A stretch of 64,000 bases of DNA from Candidatus Sumerlaea chitinivorans. GTDB lineage: Bacteria > Sumerlaeota > Sumerlaeia > Sumerlaeales > Sumerlaeaceae. Each line of letters opens with the position of its first letter. The stretch's first letter is position 1. Below are positions 15,760-60,307 of this stretch, one piece after another. Position numbers and translations under genes: made by a program. The notes below the pieces were generated by a model. The model ran no database searches, was not told where the DNA came from, and saw nothing but the letters and a program-made list of their open reading frames with translations. The stretch is taken from the NCBI GenBank assembly GCA_003290465.1, contig CP030759.1, forward strand, positions 2,232,001 to 2,296,000, given 5' to 3'.

Positions 15760-17337
15760 ATGACTGAGATGCGGCCGGATTCCGAAAGCGGCGGGCTGAA
15801 AATCGAAACTCGAACCATTGGCCGCTACACGGTAGTGCGTTCGCTCGGACGCGGCGGCATGGGGGAAGTGCTCAAGGCGATTGACCACGTCCACAACCGC
15901 CACGTCGCCCTCAAAGTGCTGGACGCGGAAGCCTATCGCGATCCCGAAGCGCTCCGTCGCTTCGAGCGGGAAGCGCGCAGCGCCATGGCGCTCGATCACC
16001 CAAACATCGCACACATCTACGGCATTGAGCACGACCAACGCGGACGCCCTTTCATCGTCATGGAGTATATCGAAGGTGAACCCCTCGACCGCTTCGCACG
16101 CGGTGGCGTTCAGGTGCCCTTCTCTCAGCTTGTGGACTTTGTCATTCAGGCGGCCAAGGGTCTGCAATGCGCCTACCGCCACTCCATTATCCACCGGGAT
16201 ATCAAGCCCTCGAACCTACTTGTCACGAATGACTTTGTGGTGAAGATCATCGATTTTGGCCTCGCGAAGTCGCTGTGGGATCAGTCGTTTCTCACTGCGA
16301 CGGGGATGGTGGTGGGCACGCCTCGCTACATCCCGCCCGAACAGGCAATGGGCCGCACGGTGGATCATCGCTCGGATATCTATTCGTTGGGCGCAACGTT
16401 CTACGAACTCGTCACGCACCAATGCCCTTTCGATGGCGACACACCCATGGCCATCATGCTCAAGCACATCAACGCCCCGCTCGTGCCCCCCTATATGATC
16501 AACCCGCAGGTGCCCGGCGACATCAGCGAGATCATCTGCCGCATGATGGCCAAGGATCCGAACGAGCGCTATCAGGACTATGAGTCACTTCTCCAAGACC
16601 TTGAGGCAGCAAAGCTCCACCGATTGGCAAAGGAGCGCCGAACACATCCCCAGCATGGTGCCGATGAGACTGTGGCACCCACCGTTCTACTCGACGAGTT
16701 AGCGGAGAGCAACGTGGGCGGCTCGCACGCCCCCACGACAGGGTATCTCTCCGAGGGAATTGTGAACATCGAGCCCAACGAGCTGCCCGAGGCGCCTCCG
16801 CCCTCGCGAGCCCGAATCTACATTCTATCGCTTATCGCGCTTTTTGTCCTTGCGATCGTCGTGGTCACTGCGCTCCGGCAGGTCGAGGACACTCCTGATC
16901 GCCAACCCTCGTGGCTCGCTCTCCGGATCCGTGAGTGGGTCCAAGGGAGCCGCAAAAGCGAGTCGCGTACCGTGGAGGACGTCATCCGCGAGGATAACGA
17001 ACGCATCCAGCAAACGGTTCAGCGGATGGAGGGGCTTGCGGTGCGGGCGCTCGAATATAAACGTCAAAATGCCGGCCGCTTGCCGACCGCACGTGAACTC
17101 GTGCGCGCCGGCGTGATTCAGGAAGCTGATGCCGTGGATGGTTGGGGGCACCCTCTCTTGATCACCTCCGAAGAAGGCGGGAAAATTGTCGCCACTGGGC
17201 GAGATGGGATCGAGCGAACCAGCGATGACTTCGTGCTTCCCCTCATGGGAGGCACACGCATCATCCCGCCCCCGCTCTCCCAGAGCGATGCCGCTATCCT
17301 CGCTCAAGAGCGAGAGGGGCAGAGCGCCAGCAAATAA
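15760..17337 (+). CDS. membrane Ser/Thr protein kinase with pseudopilin-like C-terminal domain
   Basis: Eukaryote-like (PknB-type) kinase. Residues 20-290 are the kinase: Gly loop LGRGGMGEV (29-37), ATP Lys in VALKVL (K52), HRDIKPSN (145-152), IDFGLAKS (164-171) and the activation/P+1 region GTPRYIPPEQ. A single transmembrane helix lies near residues 350-370 (YILSLIALFVLAIVVVTAL). The roughly 155-residue ectodomain ends in a stretch (LPTARELV, DGWGHPLLI, ATGRDGIERTSDDF) very like the C-terminal Ca-binding part of type II secretion pseudopilin GspG. GGAGAG 7 nt before the ATG supports the start. The ectodomain probably senses something at the envelope; the upstream FN3 lipoprotein is a candidate partner by position only. 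Confidence 0.85.
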   Translation: MTEMRPDSESGGLKIETRTIGRYTVVRSLGRGGMGEVLKAIDHVHNRHVALKVLDAEAYRDPEALRRFEREARSAMALDHPNIAHIYGIEHDQRGRPFIVMEYIEGEPLDRFARGGVQVPFSQLVDFVIQAAKGLQCAYRHSIIHRDIKPSNLLVTNDFVVKIIDFGLAKSLWDQSFLTATGMVVGTPRYIPPEQAMGRTVDHRSDIYSLGATFYELVTHQCPFDGDTPMAIMLKHINAPLVPPYMINPQVPGDISEIICRMMAKDPNERYQDYESLLQDLEAAKLHRLAKERRTHPQHGADETVAPTVLLDELAESNVGGSHAPTTGYLSEGIVNIEPNELPEAPPPSRARIYILSLIALFVLAIVVVTALRQVEDTPDRQPSWLALRIREWVQGSRKSESRTVEDVIREDNERIQQTVQRMEGLAVRALEYKRQNAGRLPTARELVRAGVIQEADAVDGWGHPLLITSEEGGKIVATGRDGIERTSDDFVLPLMGGTRIIPPPLSQSDAAILAQEREGQSASK

Positions 17338-52564: not shown

Positions 52565-53818
52565 TCACTTCTCGTTAGGAGTTGCCGGGTTCCTGAGGGT
52601 TTCAAAAAGCTTTCCAAACGGATTCTGGATGGGAGCAGGCGTGGGCTGGGGTGGCGGCGCTTTGCGTGAGGGCGAGAAAATGCCGCCGGGCGCAAAAAGC
52701 TGAAGCAGAACCACCAGCGCGACTCCCCCCAAAAACGTGTAGATCATCACCTTCATCAGCTTGCGGGCGCGCCGCGTCACTGTCTCCACGGCTTCCCGCA
52801 CGTAGGGGGCAAGTTTGAGGCGCATTTGCCCCTCGATCTCCTGCCCCACCATGGCCTGCACGTGCTTGGGTAACTGCGTATCGATGGCGTTTGCGACCTC
52901 GCGCTCTACGATTTCTTGCGTTAGCTCGCGCGCGATCTTTGGAACGATCTTTTGCGCTGCGGCATCAATGACAGTGACCACTCGTTGCGAGGCCTCAGGA
53001 ACAAGGTTTTCTGCCTCCTTCTGTACGCGCCGCTGAACCTCTTTTGGCAGCACCTGCTCGATCGCCTCTCGCACGCGCTCGCGGGCCAGATTGGGCAATA
53101 CGCTGTCGGCCACGCGCCGCACGGCTCGCTCCGTCTCGTCGCGCAGGACCGCATCGATCGCTTCCGAGATTTTCCGCTCCGCAAGCTTCTCGACCATGCT
53201 GCGGGCCACCTCTTGCACTGTCATCTTCACGAGCTCTTCCTGCTTTGCCGCGCTTAACTGCGTGACCCGCTCATCCACTTCTTTTCGGGCGCGCTGGTCC
53301 ACCTGCGACACCACCAGCTGGAGCGCTCGCTCAATAATGATCTGTGTTTTCTGCTCCACGGCCTGCTGAATATAGGTCTCCGCCAGCCGCTTCATCATGG
53401 CATCGGCAGCTTGCCGGAGGTGCTCACGGCTTCGCTCAAGGATTTGTTTCTCCTCGAGCATCGTTTGCACTTTCTTCAGTAGCGTCTCGGGCTCAAAGGG
53501 CTTCTTGAGCCAACCATTTGCTCCCAGTAAGGTCAGGCTTTCGTTCTTCGGAATCTCTGTTTCATGAAATAGCAGGAGGATGGGCAATTGGTGGAGGGAG
53601 TCGTCGCTGCGCAGGAGGCGGGTGGTGTCGAGGCCGGACATCTCGGCCATTGCATTATCCAAGATCACCAGATCCACACCTTCGAGATCCGGAAAGCCGA
53701 CCGCCGCGACGCCATTCGAGGCCACGGTGACCTGATAACCGTTGGGTTCCAACGTGGCGCGCACGAGCTCCTGAACTGCAACCGAATCATCTACGACGAG
53801 TATGTGTTCACCGGCCAT
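52565..53818 (-). CDS. membrane-anchored response regulator with amphipathic helical array
   Basis: Residues 1-120 are a receiver domain: acidic D10 and D11, phosphoacceptor D54 in VILDNAM, and Lys in WLKKPF. The conserved Thr/Ser after strand 4 reads Phe (PILLLFHE), so signalling may be non-standard. Residues about 125-355 are long amphipathic helices punctuated by LP/VP dipeptides every 16-24 residues (VLPNLARERV, VLPKEVQRRV, LVPEASQRV, IVPKIAREL), reminiscent of apolipoprotein arrays. A single transmembrane helix follows (VMIYTFLGGVALVVLLQLF) and then a Pro-rich tail. There is no DNA-binding domain. It lies 19 nt downstream of the DUF4388 gene, in the same operon. Confidence 0.82.
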   Translation of the reverse strand: MAGEHILVVDDSVAVQELVRATLEPNGYQVTVASNGVAAVGFPDLEGVDLVILDNAMAEMSGLDTTRLLRSDDSLHQLPILLLFHETEIPKNESLTLLGANGWLKKPFEPETLLKKVQTMLEEKQILERSREHLRQAADAMMKRLAETYIQQAVEQKTQIIIERALQLVVSQVDQRARKEVDERVTQLSAAKQEELVKMTVQEVARSMVEKLAERKISEAIDAVLRDETERAVRRVADSVLPNLARERVREAIEQVLPKEVQRRVQKEAENLVPEASQRVVTVIDAAAQKIVPKIARELTQEIVEREVANAIDTQLPKHVQAMVGQEIEGQMRLKLAPYVREAVETVTRRARKLMKVMIYTFLGGVALVVLLQLFAPGGIFSPSRKAPPPQPTPAPIQNPFGKLFETLRNPATPNEK

Positions 53819-53837
53819 CGTTCGCTGCTAACGCTCC

Positions 53838-55187
53838 CTATGCATAGATCTTGTCGGCGTACTCCTGAAAATAGAAGTCCTCGCTGTGCTGAATTTTGGA
53901 GCGCTGGCGATAGTCCTGGCAAAACTCGGTGAAAAGTTTCTGTGCTACTCGCGTCCCCATCCGCTCCGCCGCCTCAACGAAGATCAGCTTCATTAGCCGC
54001 GCCAGCGCATCGAGTGTCTCATTCATCACCCCTTCAAACGGCCCTTTGGTGCCGACCACCTGCGCGTAGCGCTCAAACTCGCTCGCATCGAGCTTGTTGC
54101 CGCGCGCCGTCACGAGGTCTGCTTTCGGAAAACTCATGAGCACTTGGCGCCAGTAACGTTCCACGAGCCGATCGTCGCGCTCACCACGGTAAAACTCAGG
54201 TTCATCGCAAAGCTGTCTCATCAGAGCATTGATCATCGAAGCCACAAAACCGACCGGCGTCAGAAATTCCATCACTGGGGCCGGTTCGCGCTTGAGCTGC
54301 GGAGCTTCTCCTGTTTCCTCTGCTACTTTCCGCCGAACAAACATAGCCAGAATCCGCGCCGACGTTGAGCCCGTCGACTGCTGAGGAGCGTCCGGGGTTT
54401 TCGCCTTGGGGACAATGTTCTCTAAATCGAGCGCTGAATACGTTTCGGGCAAAAGCTCTTCTTCTTCCGGCATGCGGAGGCCAATGTAGCCCGCCGCCAG
54501 CAAGGCGTTGAGGATGCGGTAGGTCTCGAACTTGCCCACCCCGCTGCGGTTTGCGATCGAACCCACATTGTACACGCCGTTGATAAGCGACAACACCTTC
54601 CATTCGCTGTCGCTAAACTGCATCTCCTCGCGCGCACTATCGAACGCCAACGGCCGCACATAGGGGATAGCCTGATCTCCGGGAATGTTTCGCACGATTC
54701 GGACCCACTCATCCAGTCGGCGCGTCCCCTCGATGATCAGCGGCTCCACATCCAACTCCACCAAAACGTCCGGCGGATGCCCCTCATCCCCGTAATCAAA
54801 TTTGAACGACCCTTCCTGCAGCGAGAAAAGGTCCCACATTTCTTCCTCAAGCTGGAGCCGAATGGCCTGCCGGAGCTGGTCGCGCGTCAAGACCCCACGT
54901 TCAATTAGGATTTGTCCCAGAGGGGGCGGATTGGGAAGCGTCCGCTGGTAGCGAAGGGCCTCCTCCACATCCTGCCGAGACACGAGCCCCTGATTGACCA
55001 GCATTTGCCCGATCTTGCGCGGCCGCCCCAAACTCGACGAATTGACCAGTTTCCCCCCACGCAAATGAAGCTGAACCGAGTAGTGCCCATGCGACACCGT
55101 CAGCGTGCCCGTAAGTTTCCCCATGCTTAAAAACTGGAGAATCTCCGGCAAGCTAAGTGTCGGGTTGAGCCTACCCTCAAGCTCCAT
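53838..55187 (-). CDS. DUF4388 domain protein, signalling-associated
   Basis: A 449-residue cytosolic protein. Residues 1-55 are the DUF4388 (PATAN-like) start: MELEGRLNPTLSLPEILQFL, GTLTVSHG, VQLHLRGGKLVNS. Residues 60-125 contain two related helical units (IGQMLVNQGLVSRQDVEEAL and LGQILIERGVLTRDQLRQAI) as in GspE-N/MshEN-type domains. A winged-helix-like segment lies near 195-240 (WKVLSLINGVYNVGSIAN, ETYRILNALLAAGYIGL). The last 150 residues are helical. DUF4388 proteins commonly accompany two-component and GTPase signalling, in keeping with the receiver protein downstream and the Hsp70-kinase gene transcribed divergently. Confidence 0.8.
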   Translation of the reverse strand: MELEGRLNPTLSLPEILQFLSMGKLTGTLTVSHGHYSVQLHLRGGKLVNSSSLGRPRKIGQMLVNQGLVSRQDVEEALRYQRTLPNPPPLGQILIERGVLTRDQLRQAIRLQLEEEMWDLFSLQEGSFKFDYGDEGHPPDVLVELDVEPLIIEGTRRLDEWVRIVRNIPGDQAIPYVRPLAFDSAREEMQFSDSEWKVLSLINGVYNVGSIANRSGVGKFETYRILNALLAAGYIGLRMPEEEELLPETYSALDLENIVPKAKTPDAPQQSTGSTSARILAMFVRRKVAEETGEAPQLKREPAPVMEFLTPVGFVASMINALMRQLCDEPEFYRGERDDRLVERYWRQVLMSFPKADLVTARGNKLDASEFERYAQVVGTKGPFEGVMNETLDALARLMKLIFVEAAERMGTRVAQKLFTEFCQDYRQRSKIQHSEDFYFQEYADKIYA

Positions 55188-55397: not shown

Positions 55398-58300
55398 ATG
55401 GCTAACGATATTGTTATCGGCATTGATCTGGGAACAACCAATTCCGTAGTTGCGGTTGTTGAGGGGGACGAGCCCAAGGTCTTGACCAATGCCGAGGGAT
55501 CCACGCGCACCCCCTCCGTCGTCGCGTTTCCCGATCCAAACGGACCTCCGCTCGTCGGCGAGCTGGCAAAGCGCCAAGCCACGATTCATCCGCAAAACAC
55601 CATCTTTAGCATCAAACGCCTCATGGGGCGTTCGCTTGCCGACGTTCAAAACTTGGGCATCGAAGTGCCCTACGACCTCGCCGAAGAGGACGGCCAACTT
55701 GTGGTCCGTATTGGCGAAACTTGCTACACTCCGACTCAAATGTCGGCTTACATCCTCGCGAAGCTCAAGAAGACCGCGGAGGAGTACTTTGGCGAGCCAG
55801 TGGATAAGGCCGTCATCACTGTGCCCGCGTATTTCGACGACCTTCAGCGCCAAGCGACCTACGAAGCAGGTGAACTGGCCGGCCTTCAAGTCCTGCGGCT
55901 GCTCAACGAACCCACGGCCGCCGCGATGGCTTACGGCCTTGGCCGTAGCCGTGACGAAAGAGTCGCTGTCTACGATTTTGGAGGGGGAACGTTCGACCTC
56001 ACCCTCCTCGATATTTCGAACAACGCATTTGAAGTCCTTACCTCAGTGGGCGACACCCACCTTGGCGGCGACGACATCGACGCCCTCATCGTCAACCACC
56101 TCCTCCGAGCGATCTGCCAGAAAGTCGGTCACGATTTTTCTCCCGACGCGATGGTCAGACAGCGCCTGAAAGAGGCGGCGGAGCAGGCTAAATGCGAGCT
56201 CTCATTATCGCGCCAAGCCACGATCTACCTACCATTCCTCACCTACGTTGGCAGCGAACCCGTTCACTTGGAATACGTGCTGACGCGCGATGAACTCGAA
56301 CGCATGATTGCCCCACTGGTGGAGCGCACGATCGAGTGCTGCAAAAAAGCACTTCAATCCTGCAACCTCACACCCGACGATATTGATCGCGTCGTCATGG
56401 TCGGCGGCAGTTGCCGAATCCCCTACGTGCAGGATCGCGTCGAGGACTTCTTTGGAATCGCCCCGTTCAAAGGCATCAATCCGGACGAAGTGGTGGCCGT
56501 AGGAGCTGCCATGCAAGGCGCCATCCTTGTCGGCCGCCTCAAGGAAGTCGTCCTGCTCGACGTCACCCCCCATTCCTTGGGGATCGAAGTGGAGGACGGA
56601 AAAGTTTCCCGCATCATCGAGAAGAATTCCACTATCCCAATTAAAGCGGCGAAACTCTTCACCACGACAGAGGACAATCAGGAAATGGTCATCGTCCACG
56701 TCCTCCAAGGCGAAGGCGAGACCGTGGAGAATTGCCGCTCCCTCGGCAAATTTGTCCTGACCGGCATTCAACAAGCAAAAGCGGGCCTCCCACGCATTCA
56801 GGTAACCTTCCACATCAATGCAGATGGCATGGTCGAGGTCTCGGCCGAGGATCTCGCAACTCGTCAGCAGAAAGCGATCTCACTGGCAATTGCTCCCGGC
56901 GATGAAGAGCCGCCACGTGAGCGCAAGCGCAGGGGAACACGGCGTCAGCCGGCGAAACAGCCCACTTCCCCCGAGGTGGTGGCTGCGCCGCCCCCTCGCA
57001 CCGCCGAGAAAGCCAACGCACAGATTCACGTCGAACGGTTCCATACGGCGGCATTCCGGCCGTTGCGCAAAGGCGACACGGTTGCGCGCTCGGACGAGCA
57101 CGCTTCCCATGCAACCAAACAGCCGGCATCGCCGACAGGCACCCAACAGCCCTTGCCCGACACTGCCGACAAAACATGGCCAGAGATTCCGCATCCGTCA
57201 GAACTTGAGCTGACACCGACCACGGCTCAGCTATTAGAGCAGTTAGCGAGCGGGGAGGCGAGTGCCACTTCCCTATCCGCCGAAGTAGTGAAAGCCGCCC
57301 AAGCAGAGCTCGAAAACCTACTCGCTACGACCCCCGGTAACCAAGCGGCCCGCGAGTGGCTCATTCGCCTTCTTGTGCTCAACGGAGATATCTCTGAGGC
57401 CACGAGGGAGCTGAGGGAGTGGCTGCAGCAACCCGCATCGTTAAATCCTCGCGCGCTTTTGCGATGCGTTGAGTATCTCGAACAAACGACCGCTCCATCC
57501 GACGCAATCGTTGAAATCCGATTGCGGGCGCTCAGTGCCCTCGGTCGCTACGAAGAAGCGCTTGAGCTCATTGACAACCTTTACCGGGGAAAAGATGTTC
57601 CGCAGGAGATCCTCCAACTGGAAGCTGACCTCTGCAAAAGCGCTCTCATAGTCTCGCCCTCCCCCAAGATTGAGTTTCGGTTAGGACGTGCGCTGGTTCG
57701 CTTGGGTCACATCGAACAAGCCGTGCCTTATTTCCAGTCGTGTAGTAGCGCGTCGGAGCTTCGCAAATCTGCCAATCACGCCCTCGCGCTTTGCTACTGG
57801 AAAAAGGGCTTGCTCTACCTGGCGTGGCAAAAGCTCCAGGCCATGGAGCCCGACGACGAAGTGAAAGATATGATGTACCGGCTCGCGCTGGATATGATCC
57901 AGTCCGGCGACCTTCAAAACGCACGGGAAGTTCTCGAACGACTGGAGGGTTTGGAGCCAAATTATCGCGACGTGAGAGCCCAACTCGCCCGGTTGCGGGA
58001 AAATTCCACGAGCCAACTTGCCGCCCCGACTTCCATCGCAGAGGCGAATGAGGCATTTGCAAACTCGCGCTTTATGATCCTTGAAGAGATCAACCGAGGC
58101 TCTATGGGCGTCGTGTATCGCGCGCGGGATAAGATCCTCGATGAAATCGTGGCTCTTAAAGTTCTCAACGACTATCTTGCAAACGATCCCAATGCGGTGG
58201 AGCGGTTCAAGTCCGAGGCTCGTGCCGCCAAGCGCCTGTCGCACCCCCATATCGTGCGCATCCATGATATGTTCGAGATTGGCCCCAAGAAGGTCCTCTC

Positions 58301-58847
58301 CATGGAATACATCGAAGGCCGCGACCTGAAAACCATCCTCCACGAGCGCGGCCGCTTGGAGCCCACAGAAGTTGTTCGGATCGCGAAAGCAGTGGGCGAG
58401 GCTCTCGCATACGCGCATGAACTGCAGATCATCCACCGCGACATCAAACCGGCAAACATCATGGTCACGAACACGAATCAGGTGAAAGTTACCGATTTTG
58501 GAATCGCGAAAATTCTGCAGGCGGGCCGCGAGGTTACGCGGTCGGGATCCCAGATCATCGGCACCCCCCTCTATATGGCACCCGAGCAAATTCGCGGCGA
58601 CCAGGTGGACGCTCGAACCGATATCTATTCGCTTGGCGTCACGCTTTACGAGCTACTCAACGGTCTGCCGCCGTTCTATGAAGGGAACATCGAATACCAT
58701 CATTTGCACACCACGCCGCCTCCCTTTACAATTGAGCTGCCCATGGAACTTGCTCAGATCATCTTGCGATGCTTGAGCAAATCTCCCGACAGCCGATTCC
58801 AGAGTGCCCCCGAACTACTCGAAGCACTCGAGAGTGTGGAGCTATAG
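55398..58847 (+). CDS. Hsp70 - TPR-like - Ser/Thr protein kinase fusion protein
   Basis: One uninterrupted 1149-residue polypeptide. Residues 1-375 are an Hsp70 ATPase domain (IGIDLGTTNSVVAV, VITVPAYFDDLQRQAT, LNEPTAAAMAYGL, YDFGGGTFDLTLL, VMVGGSCRIPYVQ). Residues 385-495 are the substrate-binding beta domain (DVTPHSLGIEVEDG, VTFHINADGMVEVSAED). The alpha lid and EEVD-type tail are absent; instead a Pro/Lys-rich linker (about 495-610) leads to a TPR-like helical region (about 615-885, e.g. LGRYEEALELIDNLYRG). Residues 892-1149 are a kinase with K in VALKVL, HRDIKPAN (about 1014), DFGIAK (about 1033) and GTPLYMAPEQ. The Gly loop reads NRGSMGVV, with Asn for the first Gly. Divergent from the DUF4388-receiver operon. 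No frameshift or stop supports a genuine fusion. Confidence 0.93.
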   Translation: MANDIVIGIDLGTTNSVVAVVEGDEPKVLTNAEGSTRTPSVVAFPDPNGPPLVGELAKRQATIHPQNTIFSIKRLMGRSLADVQNLGIEVPYDLAEEDGQLVVRIGETCYTPTQMSAYILAKLKKTAEEYFGEPVDKAVITVPAYFDDLQRQATYEAGELAGLQVLRLLNEPTAAAMAYGLGRSRDERVAVYDFGGGTFDLTLLDISNNAFEVLTSVGDTHLGGDDIDALIVNHLLRAICQKVGHDFSPDAMVRQRLKEAAEQAKCELSLSRQATIYLPFLTYVGSEPVHLEYVLTRDELERMIAPLVERTIECCKKALQSCNLTPDDIDRVVMVGGSCRIPYVQDRVEDFFGIAPFKGINPDEVVAVGAAMQGAILVGRLKEVVLLDVTPHSLGIEVEDGKVSRIIEKNSTIPIKAAKLFTTTEDNQEMVIVHVLQGEGETVENCRSLGKFVLTGIQQAKAGLPRIQVTFHINADGMVEVSAEDLATRQQKAISLAIAPGDEEPPRERKRRGTRRQPAKQPTSPEVVAAPPPRTAEKANAQIHVERFHTAAFRPLRKGDTVARSDEHASHATKQPASPTGTQQPLPDTADKTWPEIPHPSELELTPTTAQLLEQLASGEASATSLSAEVVKAAQAELENLLATTPGNQAAREWLIRLLVLNGDISEATRELREWLQQPASLNPRALLRCVEYLEQTTAPSDAIVEIRLRALSALGRYEEALELIDNLYRGKDVPQEILQLEADLCKSALIVSPSPKIEFRLGRALVRLGHIEQAVPYFQSCSSASELRKSANHALALCYWKKGLLYLAWQKLQAMEPDDEVKDMMYRLALDMIQSGDLQNAREVLERLEGLEPNYRDVRAQLARLRENSTSQLAAPTSIAEANEAFANSRFMILEEINRGSMGVVYRARDKILDEIVALKVLNDYLANDPNAVERFKSEARAAKRLSHPHIVRIHDMFEIGPKKVLSMEYIEGRDLKTILHERGRLEPTEVVRIAKAVGEALAYAHELQIIHRDIKPANIMVTNTNQVKVTDFGIAKILQAGREVTRSGSQIIGTPLYMAPEQIRGDQVDARTDIYSLGVTLYELLNGLPPFYEGNIEYHHLHTTPPPFTIELPMELAQIILRCLSKSPDSRFQSAPELLEALESVEL

Positions 58848-59251
58848 CTGCACCGACCAATGACGGGGTGGGCACCCTCTGCCTCGGAATTCAGGTTTTA
58901 CCTGCCAACACAGCGCCACCGCCCCTTTTGCCACACCTGCAGCCCCCGCGGAAGGAACGCCTTAGCCATGCAACGCGGCCCATGCGGCCGACAGCCATGT
59001 TGGCCACTTTTCAAGTGCGGCTCACCTGTAACGAGAACGGTTTTCACGTCGCCCTTCGTAGGAGGGCTTCCACCGGCTCCCTTCCTAAGTTGGCTTGCCA
59101 TAGCGGTCAGCCGCGGCGCTCGTGACACGAATGTGACAACCTCTCGCGAAAAACGAATAACTTTTCTCAAGATTGTAAAAACACTGTTCGCGACCGGCGC
59201 GGACATGAAAGTGCATCTGGTTGCTCCGCTGCAACCTCTGGGAGTAAAATA
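58848..59251. other. intergenic region, nothing convincing seen
   Basis: 404 bases between the fusion gene and the DHH gene. Near the right end GTGACA (about 59130) and AATAAC are spaced roughly as a weak promoter, and GGGAG precedes the ATG at 59252. No terminator hairpin with a T tract and no credible gene. Confidence 0.45.
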
Positions 59252-60307
59252 ATGAATCCGAGTGCGCCGAAATCAAACAACGGCTGGCCGAGTGAACCAC
59301 CTGTGGTAGAGGAAATCTGTCGCGTCATCCGCGCCAATTCCCGATTCCTGATCTGCGGTCATGCCCGCCCCGACGGCGATTGCTTGGGCTCGTGTCTGGG
59401 CCTGTACGGAATCCTTCAGGAGATGGGGAAAACGGTCCGCTTTTTCACCCCCGGCCCAATCCAAGAGTTTTTTCACTTTCTGCCTAACATCGAGCACACG
59501 ATCACCACACCGCCTCAACCTATCGAAGGCGAGATCGTCATTTACGTGGACTGCGGCGACTTTGACCGCGTGGACGAGCTTTATCGCCCCGCAGGGTTTG
59601 TGATCAACATTGACCACCACCTAAGTAACGCAACATTTGGAGCGCTGAACTGGGTGGATACAGAGGCAGCAGCCGCCGGCGAGCAGATCTATCGCCTCGC
59701 CCGCGCTCTCGAAGTGCCCATTTCACGAAATGTGGCCACTTGCCTCTTTACAGCGATCATGGCCGACACCGGCGGCTTCCGTTTTTCCAACACCGACCAA
59801 AACGCTTTCCGCGCGGTTGCTCATCTTGTGGAGTGCGGCGCCAACCCCGCCGCCATCGCCGAAGCCGTTTTCGAAAACCGAAAACCCCAAGCGGTTTGGA
59901 TCACAGGCCACATCTACCAAACCCTGAAATACGAGTTCGACGGGCGCTTTGTGTGGAACGAGATGCGCCGTGATCTCTACGAGGCCGCCGGAGGAGACGA
60001 GTTCGAACCCGAAGGGCTCTGCAGTGACATGCGGGCCATCGCGGGTGTCGAAGTGTCCGTGCTCTTCCACGAGACGCCAGAGGGTTGGTGTCGCATTGGG
60101 CTGCGCAGCAAGGGCAAGGTCAACGTCAGCGAGCTCGCCCGAATGCTTGGCGGGGGTGGCCATCACAATGCCAGCGGCGCTTACGTGAAGGAACCTTACG
60201 AAAGCGCTCGCGATCGCGCACTCGAAACCATTCGGGCCTATCTCGCCGCGCGGTTCGAGCAGCCCGACGCCTTAACCGCCGCGACTGCCGTGGCGCCCAA
60301 GGAGTAA
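59252..60307 (+). CDS. DHH-DHHA1 phosphoesterase, NrnA-like (nanoRNase / pAp phosphatase)
   Basis: Manganese-dependent phosphoesterase that in this family degrades 2-5 nt RNA (nanoRNA), pAp or cyclic-dinucleotide products. DHH motifs are HARPDGDCLGS (motif I), YVDCGD (motif II), NIDHHLSN (motif III) and ADTGGFRFSNT (motif IV); the DHHA1 end is LGGGGHHNASGA. At 351 residues it is slightly longer than Bacillus NrnA. GGGAG lies 7 nt before the ATG. Convergent with the glutamate dehydrogenase gene. Confidence 0.88.
   Translation: MNPSAPKSNNGWPSEPPVVEEICRVIRANSRFLICGHARPDGDCLGSCLGLYGILQEMGKTVRFFTPGPIQEFFHFLPNIEHTITTPPQPIEGEIVIYVDCGDFDRVDELYRPAGFVINIDHHLSNATFGALNWVDTEAAAAGEQIYRLARALEVPISRNVATCLFTAIMADTGGFRFSNTDQNAFRAVAHLVECGANPAAIAEAVFENRKPQAVWITGHIYQTLKYEFDGRFVWNEMRRDLYEAAGGDEFEPEGLCSDMRAIAGVEVSVLFHETPEGWCRIGLRSKGKVNVSELARMLGGGGHHNASGAYVKEPYESARDRALETIRAYLAARFEQPDALTAATAVAPKE

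Follow-up and report, generated by a model that had tools for sequence, protein, structure and literature searches.

We analysed a 64,000-nucleotide stretch of the Candidatus Sumerlaea chitinivorans genome (contig CP030759.1, positions 2,232,001 to 2,296,000; hereafter the window), and found on its forward strand a gene in which an Hsp70 core, a tetratricopeptide repeat (TPR) region and a Ser/Thr kinase are joined in one chain. The gene starts with ATG at 55398 and stops with TAG at 58845-58847, and its 1149 codons contain no internal stop, a length far beyond chance for an open frame. Its parts are the following, in window coordinates and amino acids (aa).

55398..58847, + strand: complete fusion gene, HSP70 core, disordered linker, TPR and Ser/Thr kinase; 1149 aa in a single open frame
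55413..56543, + strand: Hsp70 nucleotide-binding domain (NBD), aa 6-382; from the Pfam HSP70 match and the ATPase residues
56544..56567, + strand: interdomain linker of the VVLLD type, aa 383-390; from the 21-member alignment
56568..56885, + strand: beta substrate-binding domain (SBD-beta), aa 391-496, without a helical lid after it; from the pocket positions, the end of the Pfam match and the model
56886..57215, + strand: disordered linker replacing the lid, aa 497-606; from the predicted local distance difference test (pLDDT) and the charge profile
57216..58007, + strand: TPR-like helical solenoid, aa 607-870; from Pfam TPR_19/TPR_14 and the helices in the models
58065..58838, + strand: PknB-like Ser/Thr kinase domain, aa 890-1147; from the Pkinase match, the nearest solved structure and the motifs
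58092..58109, + strand: glycine-rich loop NRGSMG, aa 899-904; found in 21/21 fusions

This anatomy (an Hsp70 core lacking its lid, TPR-like helices and a complete kinase in one frame) had been proposed in an initial annotation, and it was borne out throughout by Pfam, by AlphaFold2 and by an alignment of 21 members, on which all residue and order comparisons below are based and in which the HSP70-TPR-kinase order was found in every member. Pfam matched both HSP70 and Pkinase in the one chain, with TPR families between them. Structure prediction of the whole chain from the same alignment (mean pLDDT 76.7, predicted template modelling score (pTM) 0.54) gave a DnaK-like core to residue 495 that lacked the lid helices, a coil from 496 to 595, a helical solenoid from 607 to 870 and a kinase fold from residue 892. 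A separate model of the TPR and kinase parts reached a mean pLDDT of 86.5 with a pTM of 0.50. The parts are thus predicted to be well folded, and their mutual arrangement was left unpredicted. Fold searches with the model matched Hsp70 and kinase structures only; these barely probed the TPR part.

The Hsp70 half retains the residues expected of a working chaperone core. The Pfam HSP70 match (aa 6-499, E 5e-183) breaks off at position 499 of the 599-position profile, the point at which the lid would start; the DnaK of the same genome (L001) carries a normal lid after the corresponding point. Up to the end of SBD-beta the fusion is ∼50% identical to E. coli DnaK, and the modelled half superposes on the DnaK structures 7kzu and 4b9q with Z ∼56 and a root-mean-square deviation of 1.8. 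The ATPase residues D10, T13, K73, E171, D193, T198 and D200 are invariant in 21/21 fusions, as are the peptide-pocket positions F421, T424 and V431, and R167 and N170, which in E. coli DnaK make contact with J-domains, are likewise unchanged in all 21. In the linker, VVLLDVTP, L386 occurs in 21/21 and position 388 is D or E in 21/21, with a mean major-residue frequency of 0.88. NBD, linker and SBD-beta are therefore alike in the fusion and in canonical DnaK/Hsp70, from which the fusion differs in having neither lid nor C-terminal tail and in being joined to TPR and kinase. Because the NBD with its ATPase residues and the hydrophobic linker with SBD-beta are present and the helical SBD-alpha lid is missing, this part is an Hsp70-core protein and not a DnaK. 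The score against the NCBIfam model prok_dnaK (TIGR02350) was 645.9 bits, below its cut-off of 822.55. The looser PRK00290.1 was passed (663.7 versus 648), so an automatic pipeline could name the fusion DnaK.

In place of the lid, residues 496-595 of the full-length model form a coil with pLDDT < 50. An Arg/Lys-rich tract opens this linker (about aa 506-525), and a net charge of +5 to +12 per 20-residue window was found at the lid's place in 19/21 members. The solenoid that follows was matched by Pfam TPR families within aa 632-866 (TPR_19, E 2e-11) and passed the curated cut-offs of both TPR_19 (44.4 versus 25 bits) and TPR_14 (38.5 versus 23.5 bits). Its second half (aa 755-870) is conserved and, by profile matches, common to a family of propeller-TPR-kinase paralogues described below, whereas its N-terminal half varies.

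The kinase domain gave a Pfam Pkinase match at aa 894-1141 (E 1.6e-56), and its nearest solved structure is PknB. K921, E940, H1013-R1014-D1015, N1020, D1033, G1035 and P1062-E1063 are invariant in 21/21 members, and the Hanks motifs (the VALK Lys, the alpha-C Glu, HRDxKPAN, DFG and APE) are kept in all 21 apart from a DLG in L011. Because these motifs are invariant, the domain is predicted not to be a pseudokinase. One peculiarity concerns the glycine-rich loop: the first Gly of GxGxxG is Asn in every fusion, giving NRGSMG with the second and third Gly positions retained, whereas the FG-GAP-TPR-kinase paralogues have Gly there. The motif is not unique, as it is also present in Thiotrichaceae-type kinases, which were retrieved by that very motif. 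The PASTA kinase family (PknB/StkP, NF033483) scored 308.7 bits, from the kinase domain alone, against a cut-off of 450, and Pfam matched no PASTA repeats in the fusion. Mycobacterial PknG is a soluble kinase with a rubredoxin domain in front and TPRs C-terminal to the kinase. The fusion resembles it in combining a kinase with TPRs; it differs in carrying an Hsp70 core, which PknG lacks, in having its TPRs before the kinase and in giving no rubredoxin match in Pfam.

We then compared genomes of the phylum Candidatus Sumerlaeota (formerly BRC1), 39 from the class of the window's genome and one from a second class. A single open frame spans both halves in 27 of the 39 and in the genome of the other class, 28 with the window included, four of these fusions being cut by contig ends. 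In five further class genomes there is a single half at a contig end, or the two halves are found on different contigs or with a run of N separating them. A stop between the parts, or homologues always encoded as separate genes, would have spoken against a true fusion; no such stop was found, and the frame stays intact in the independent assemblies. A profile of the junction, which needs near-exact short motifs and is not exhaustive, was run against 84,980 genome representatives and found the fusion in 29 records, all Sumerlaeota; six other matches were to kinase sequence only. Searches outside the phylum were partial: in about 345 other bacteria no comparably scoring HSP70 lay in a frame of > 770 aa, a screen that weaker or re-ordered fusions would escape, as the plasmid-borne fusions described below illustrate.

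The fusion Hsp70s form one clade (Shimodaira-Hasegawa-like approximate likelihood ratio test support 97, from a quick method), apart from the phylum's DnaK, a second DnaK-like paralogue and HscA. The member of the other class branches first in this tree, which fits an origin of the fusion before the class split. Pairwise distances of the Hsp70 halves, whose identity falls to 44%, correlate with those of the kinase halves (r = 0.90; 0/2000 permutations as high). Judged by the single Hsp70 clade and these correlated distances, the fusion is ancestral and has been inherited vertically as a unit. In the simplest account, a copy of DnaK that arose by duplication would have lost its lid and been fused to a pre-existing TPR-kinase chassis.

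Such a chassis is indeed found in Sumerlaeota. The fusion kinases group with those of a second conserved family of the phylum (support 88), whose members (L025, L121-L130 and L135) have the TPR-kinase chassis in common with the fusion. P0002, the one paralogue scanned with Pfam, consists of an FG-GAP propeller, a hydrophobic membrane-like segment, TPRs and kinase. In the own genome (C1, about 1.936-1.941 Mb), L025:1912-6759 encodes a 1616-aa protein with an FG-GAP propeller, a membrane segment, a long TPR region and a kinase, which is conserved in the class. P0002, L025 and their relatives thus share with the fusion a homologous chassis with the kinase C-terminal, and differ from it in their input, a propeller predicted to be periplasmic and accompanied by a membrane segment, and in a canonical GRGxMG loop. 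Because the sensor-like propeller lies beyond the membrane segment at the end of the chassis where the fusion has its Hsp70 core, that core is, by analogy, most likely a sensor or docking input. The kinase chassis in Sumerlaeota would then accept different input domains.

Hsp70-kinase coupling is a recurring theme, given further fusions in Pirellula, Streptomyces and Halomicrobium and an E. coli locus. Like the Sumerlaeota protein, gi|32474490 of Pirellula sp., listed by Krupa and Srinivasan 2005 (PMC1262709) and compared here by that listing, combines a Ser/Thr kinase with an Hsp70 homologue in a single bacterial chain; its order is reversed, with HSP70 C-terminal to the kinase, and it comes from a single species. 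A plasmid search added two more types. On a Streptomyces anulatus plasmid (L137:5725-8148), WP_228183974.1 (P0004), labelled 'Hsp70 family protein', is an 807-aa chain in which a Ser/Thr kinase with intact HRD and DFG-type motifs is joined to an HSP70 core; as in the fusion, the Pfam match to this core stops short of the lid. Unlike the fusion, the plasmid protein has its kinase first and no TPR was found in it, and it is one plasmid record in our collection. WP_012807418.1 (P0003; 1158 aa) of Halomicrobium mukohataei plasmid pHmuk01 (L136:7965-11441), annotated only as GrpE, resembles the fusion in that an HSP70 core precedes the kinase; it differs in a leading SBD-like fragment, in a GrpE domain between core and kinase, in kinase motifs reading HLD and DWG rather than HRD and DFG, and in being archaeal, and it occurs in three Halomicrobium plasmids. 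In E. coli, yegI (kinase), pphC (PP2C) and yegD (Hsp70 homologue) form one locus, in which YegI is a membrane protein without conserved kinase motifs; an Hsp70 homologue and a eukaryote-like kinase are genetically linked here too, in separate genes (PMC13232886). HSP70/kinase fusions thus go unrecognized under names such as 'DnaK', 'Hsp70 family protein' or 'GrpE'.

The initial annotation had called the domain order new among characterised bacterial proteins. This stands in that no description of an HSP70-TPR-kinase protein was found in the open-access literature, and the Sumerlaeota papers PMC8092238 and PMC10866078 contained no match for Hsp70 or DnaK; it needs qualifying in that kinase/HSP70 fusions of other orders exist. 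The HSP70-TPR-kinase order and its phylum-wide conservation appear to be undescribed. New here, then, are this order with TPR, a basic disordered tract where the lid would be, and conservation throughout the phylum.

What might such a protein do? We tentatively read it as a soluble proteostasis-sensing kinase, a reading to which we give slightly less than an even chance. Its Hsp70 core would bind ATP and, with J-proteins, capture exposed hydrophobic peptide segments. Lid-truncated DnaK favours fast binding and release over holding; by analogy, loss of the lid may have shifted the fusion the same way, so that with its fast exchange it would report unfolded protein rather than store it. The nucleotide and peptide state would be relayed through the conserved interdomain linker and the flexible tether to the TPR-kinase chassis, altering kinase activity through orientation, dimerization or release from inhibition, and the kinase would phosphorylate targets that adjust the stress response. 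That the fusion itself binds peptide, works with J-proteins and is active as a kinase is an inference, as are the direction in which it is regulated and every target. The idea of the initial annotation that the kinase could translate chaperone occupancy into phosphorylation is plausible, with indirect support from the intact catalytic and allosteric residues and the paralogous propeller-TPR-kinase chassis. HSP70/kinase fusions also arose in other lineages, with their domains in different orders, which suggests that such a coupling has been useful more than once. In the usual view, bacteria detect misfolded protein when it titrates DnaK away from regulators such as sigma-32; a chaperone core in cis with a kinase would be a different solution, nearer the logic of the eukaryotic unfolded protein response (UPR) in a single soluble chain. 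In that response BiP ties Hsp70 occupancy to the output of the kinases PERK and IRE1, in trans and across a membrane; the likeness is one of working only, as the architectures are not homologous. The fullest form of the proposal is a one-protein cytosolic UPR kinase, ancestral to Sumerlaeota, whose Ser/Thr kinase is gated directly in cis as its lidless Hsp70 goes through the ATP/peptide cycle, with counterparts of other domain orders among actinobacteria, planctomycetes and haloarchaea; this is offered with more reserve, as a possibility that may well prove wrong. Because the protein is conserved and has two apparently intact enzymes, recombinant material would allow a direct test of whether Hsp70 occupancy can switch a kinase in cis.

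Several observations weigh against sensing in cis. Seven of the 39 class genomes (G004, G012, G017, G020, G022, G025 and G027), three of them > 90% complete, lack the gene, which is thus not indispensable. Its neighbours differ between families and, not being conserved, indicate no pathway or target. The disordered tether is long and variable and suits loose recruitment as well as allostery, and with the interdomain orientation unpredicted (pTM 0.54 and 0.50) the models reveal no allosteric route by which Hsp70 would reach the kinase. The tether, together with the absence of defined interdomain packing and the intact SBD-beta, would suit a kinase that is constitutively active and is merely brought by the Hsp70 core, as a docking arm, to the clients of Hsp70 (nascent chains, proteins that have misfolded or aggregated, or particular folded substrates), occupancy then selecting what is phosphorylated without switching the kinase; the basic tract after the SBD in most members could in that case bind RNA, ribosomes or acidic membranes. 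We consider such client targeting unlikely, if a serious competitor, as the strictly conserved ATPase machinery and near-invariant linker exceed what a static dock needs, and as the paralogous chassis bears a predicted sensor at the same end.

Information could also flow the other way, the kinase sensing through its TPRs and phosphorylating the attached Hsp70 core or DnaK/DnaJ/GrpE to control chaperone activity. TPRs are protein-binding modules, and here their N-terminal half varies; moreover, Hsp70s are known targets of regulatory phosphorylation, for example by LegK4 acting on the substrate-binding domain (reviewed in PMC6747476). Nevertheless we regard this as improbable, because the predicted periplasmic propeller at the N-terminus of the paralogues cannot be a target of a cytosolic kinase, and because a lidless Hsp70 makes a poor general chaperone, as lid truncations of DnaK do. 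Odds that are poorer still attach to an Hsp70 half that is a structural or dimerization module with no peptide binding or ATP cycling: the missing lid would agree with it, but catalytic, linker and pocket positions stay invariant in 21/21 members despite the low identities reached. As for adjacent genes joined by an error of sequencing or assembly, the chance is negligible. The apparent split of the gene in G003 comes from a run of N in that assembly, and a split gene, frameshift or assembly artefact is ruled out by the one-frame fusion in the 28 independent genomes.

Two other ideas about the gene's context were rejected. A conserved operon or partner gene was sought among its neighbours, and the comparison gave none. 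The divergent genes at 52565-55187 (- strand) code for a response-regulator protein and for a protein with DUF4388 and an MshE-like cyclic di-GMP-binding motif, and this pair is kept beside the fusion gene in close relatives only (L048, L060). A role in anti-phage defence was also dismissed, as the PADLOC matches were generic kinase-domain matches and inheritance is vertical. Genome-wide, ten kinase-domain matches and one PP2C-type phosphatase match were obtained, so phosphorylation signalling is present and not extreme.

Some minor observations complete the picture. The fusion gene and an NrnA-like DHH gene are separated by a 130-aa open reading frame (58860-59252, + strand). Neither Pfam nor NCBIfam matched it, the neighbour comparison showed no relative, and it is probably not a gene. 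The window holds a second Ser/Thr kinase gene at about 15826-16575 (+ strand), in a 530-aa frame (L087). Finally, the kinases in a record titled Klebsiella pneumoniae metagenome-assembled genome (L076) are close to those of an uncultured proteobacterium (L077); the Klebsiella label is probably wrong or the bin contaminated.

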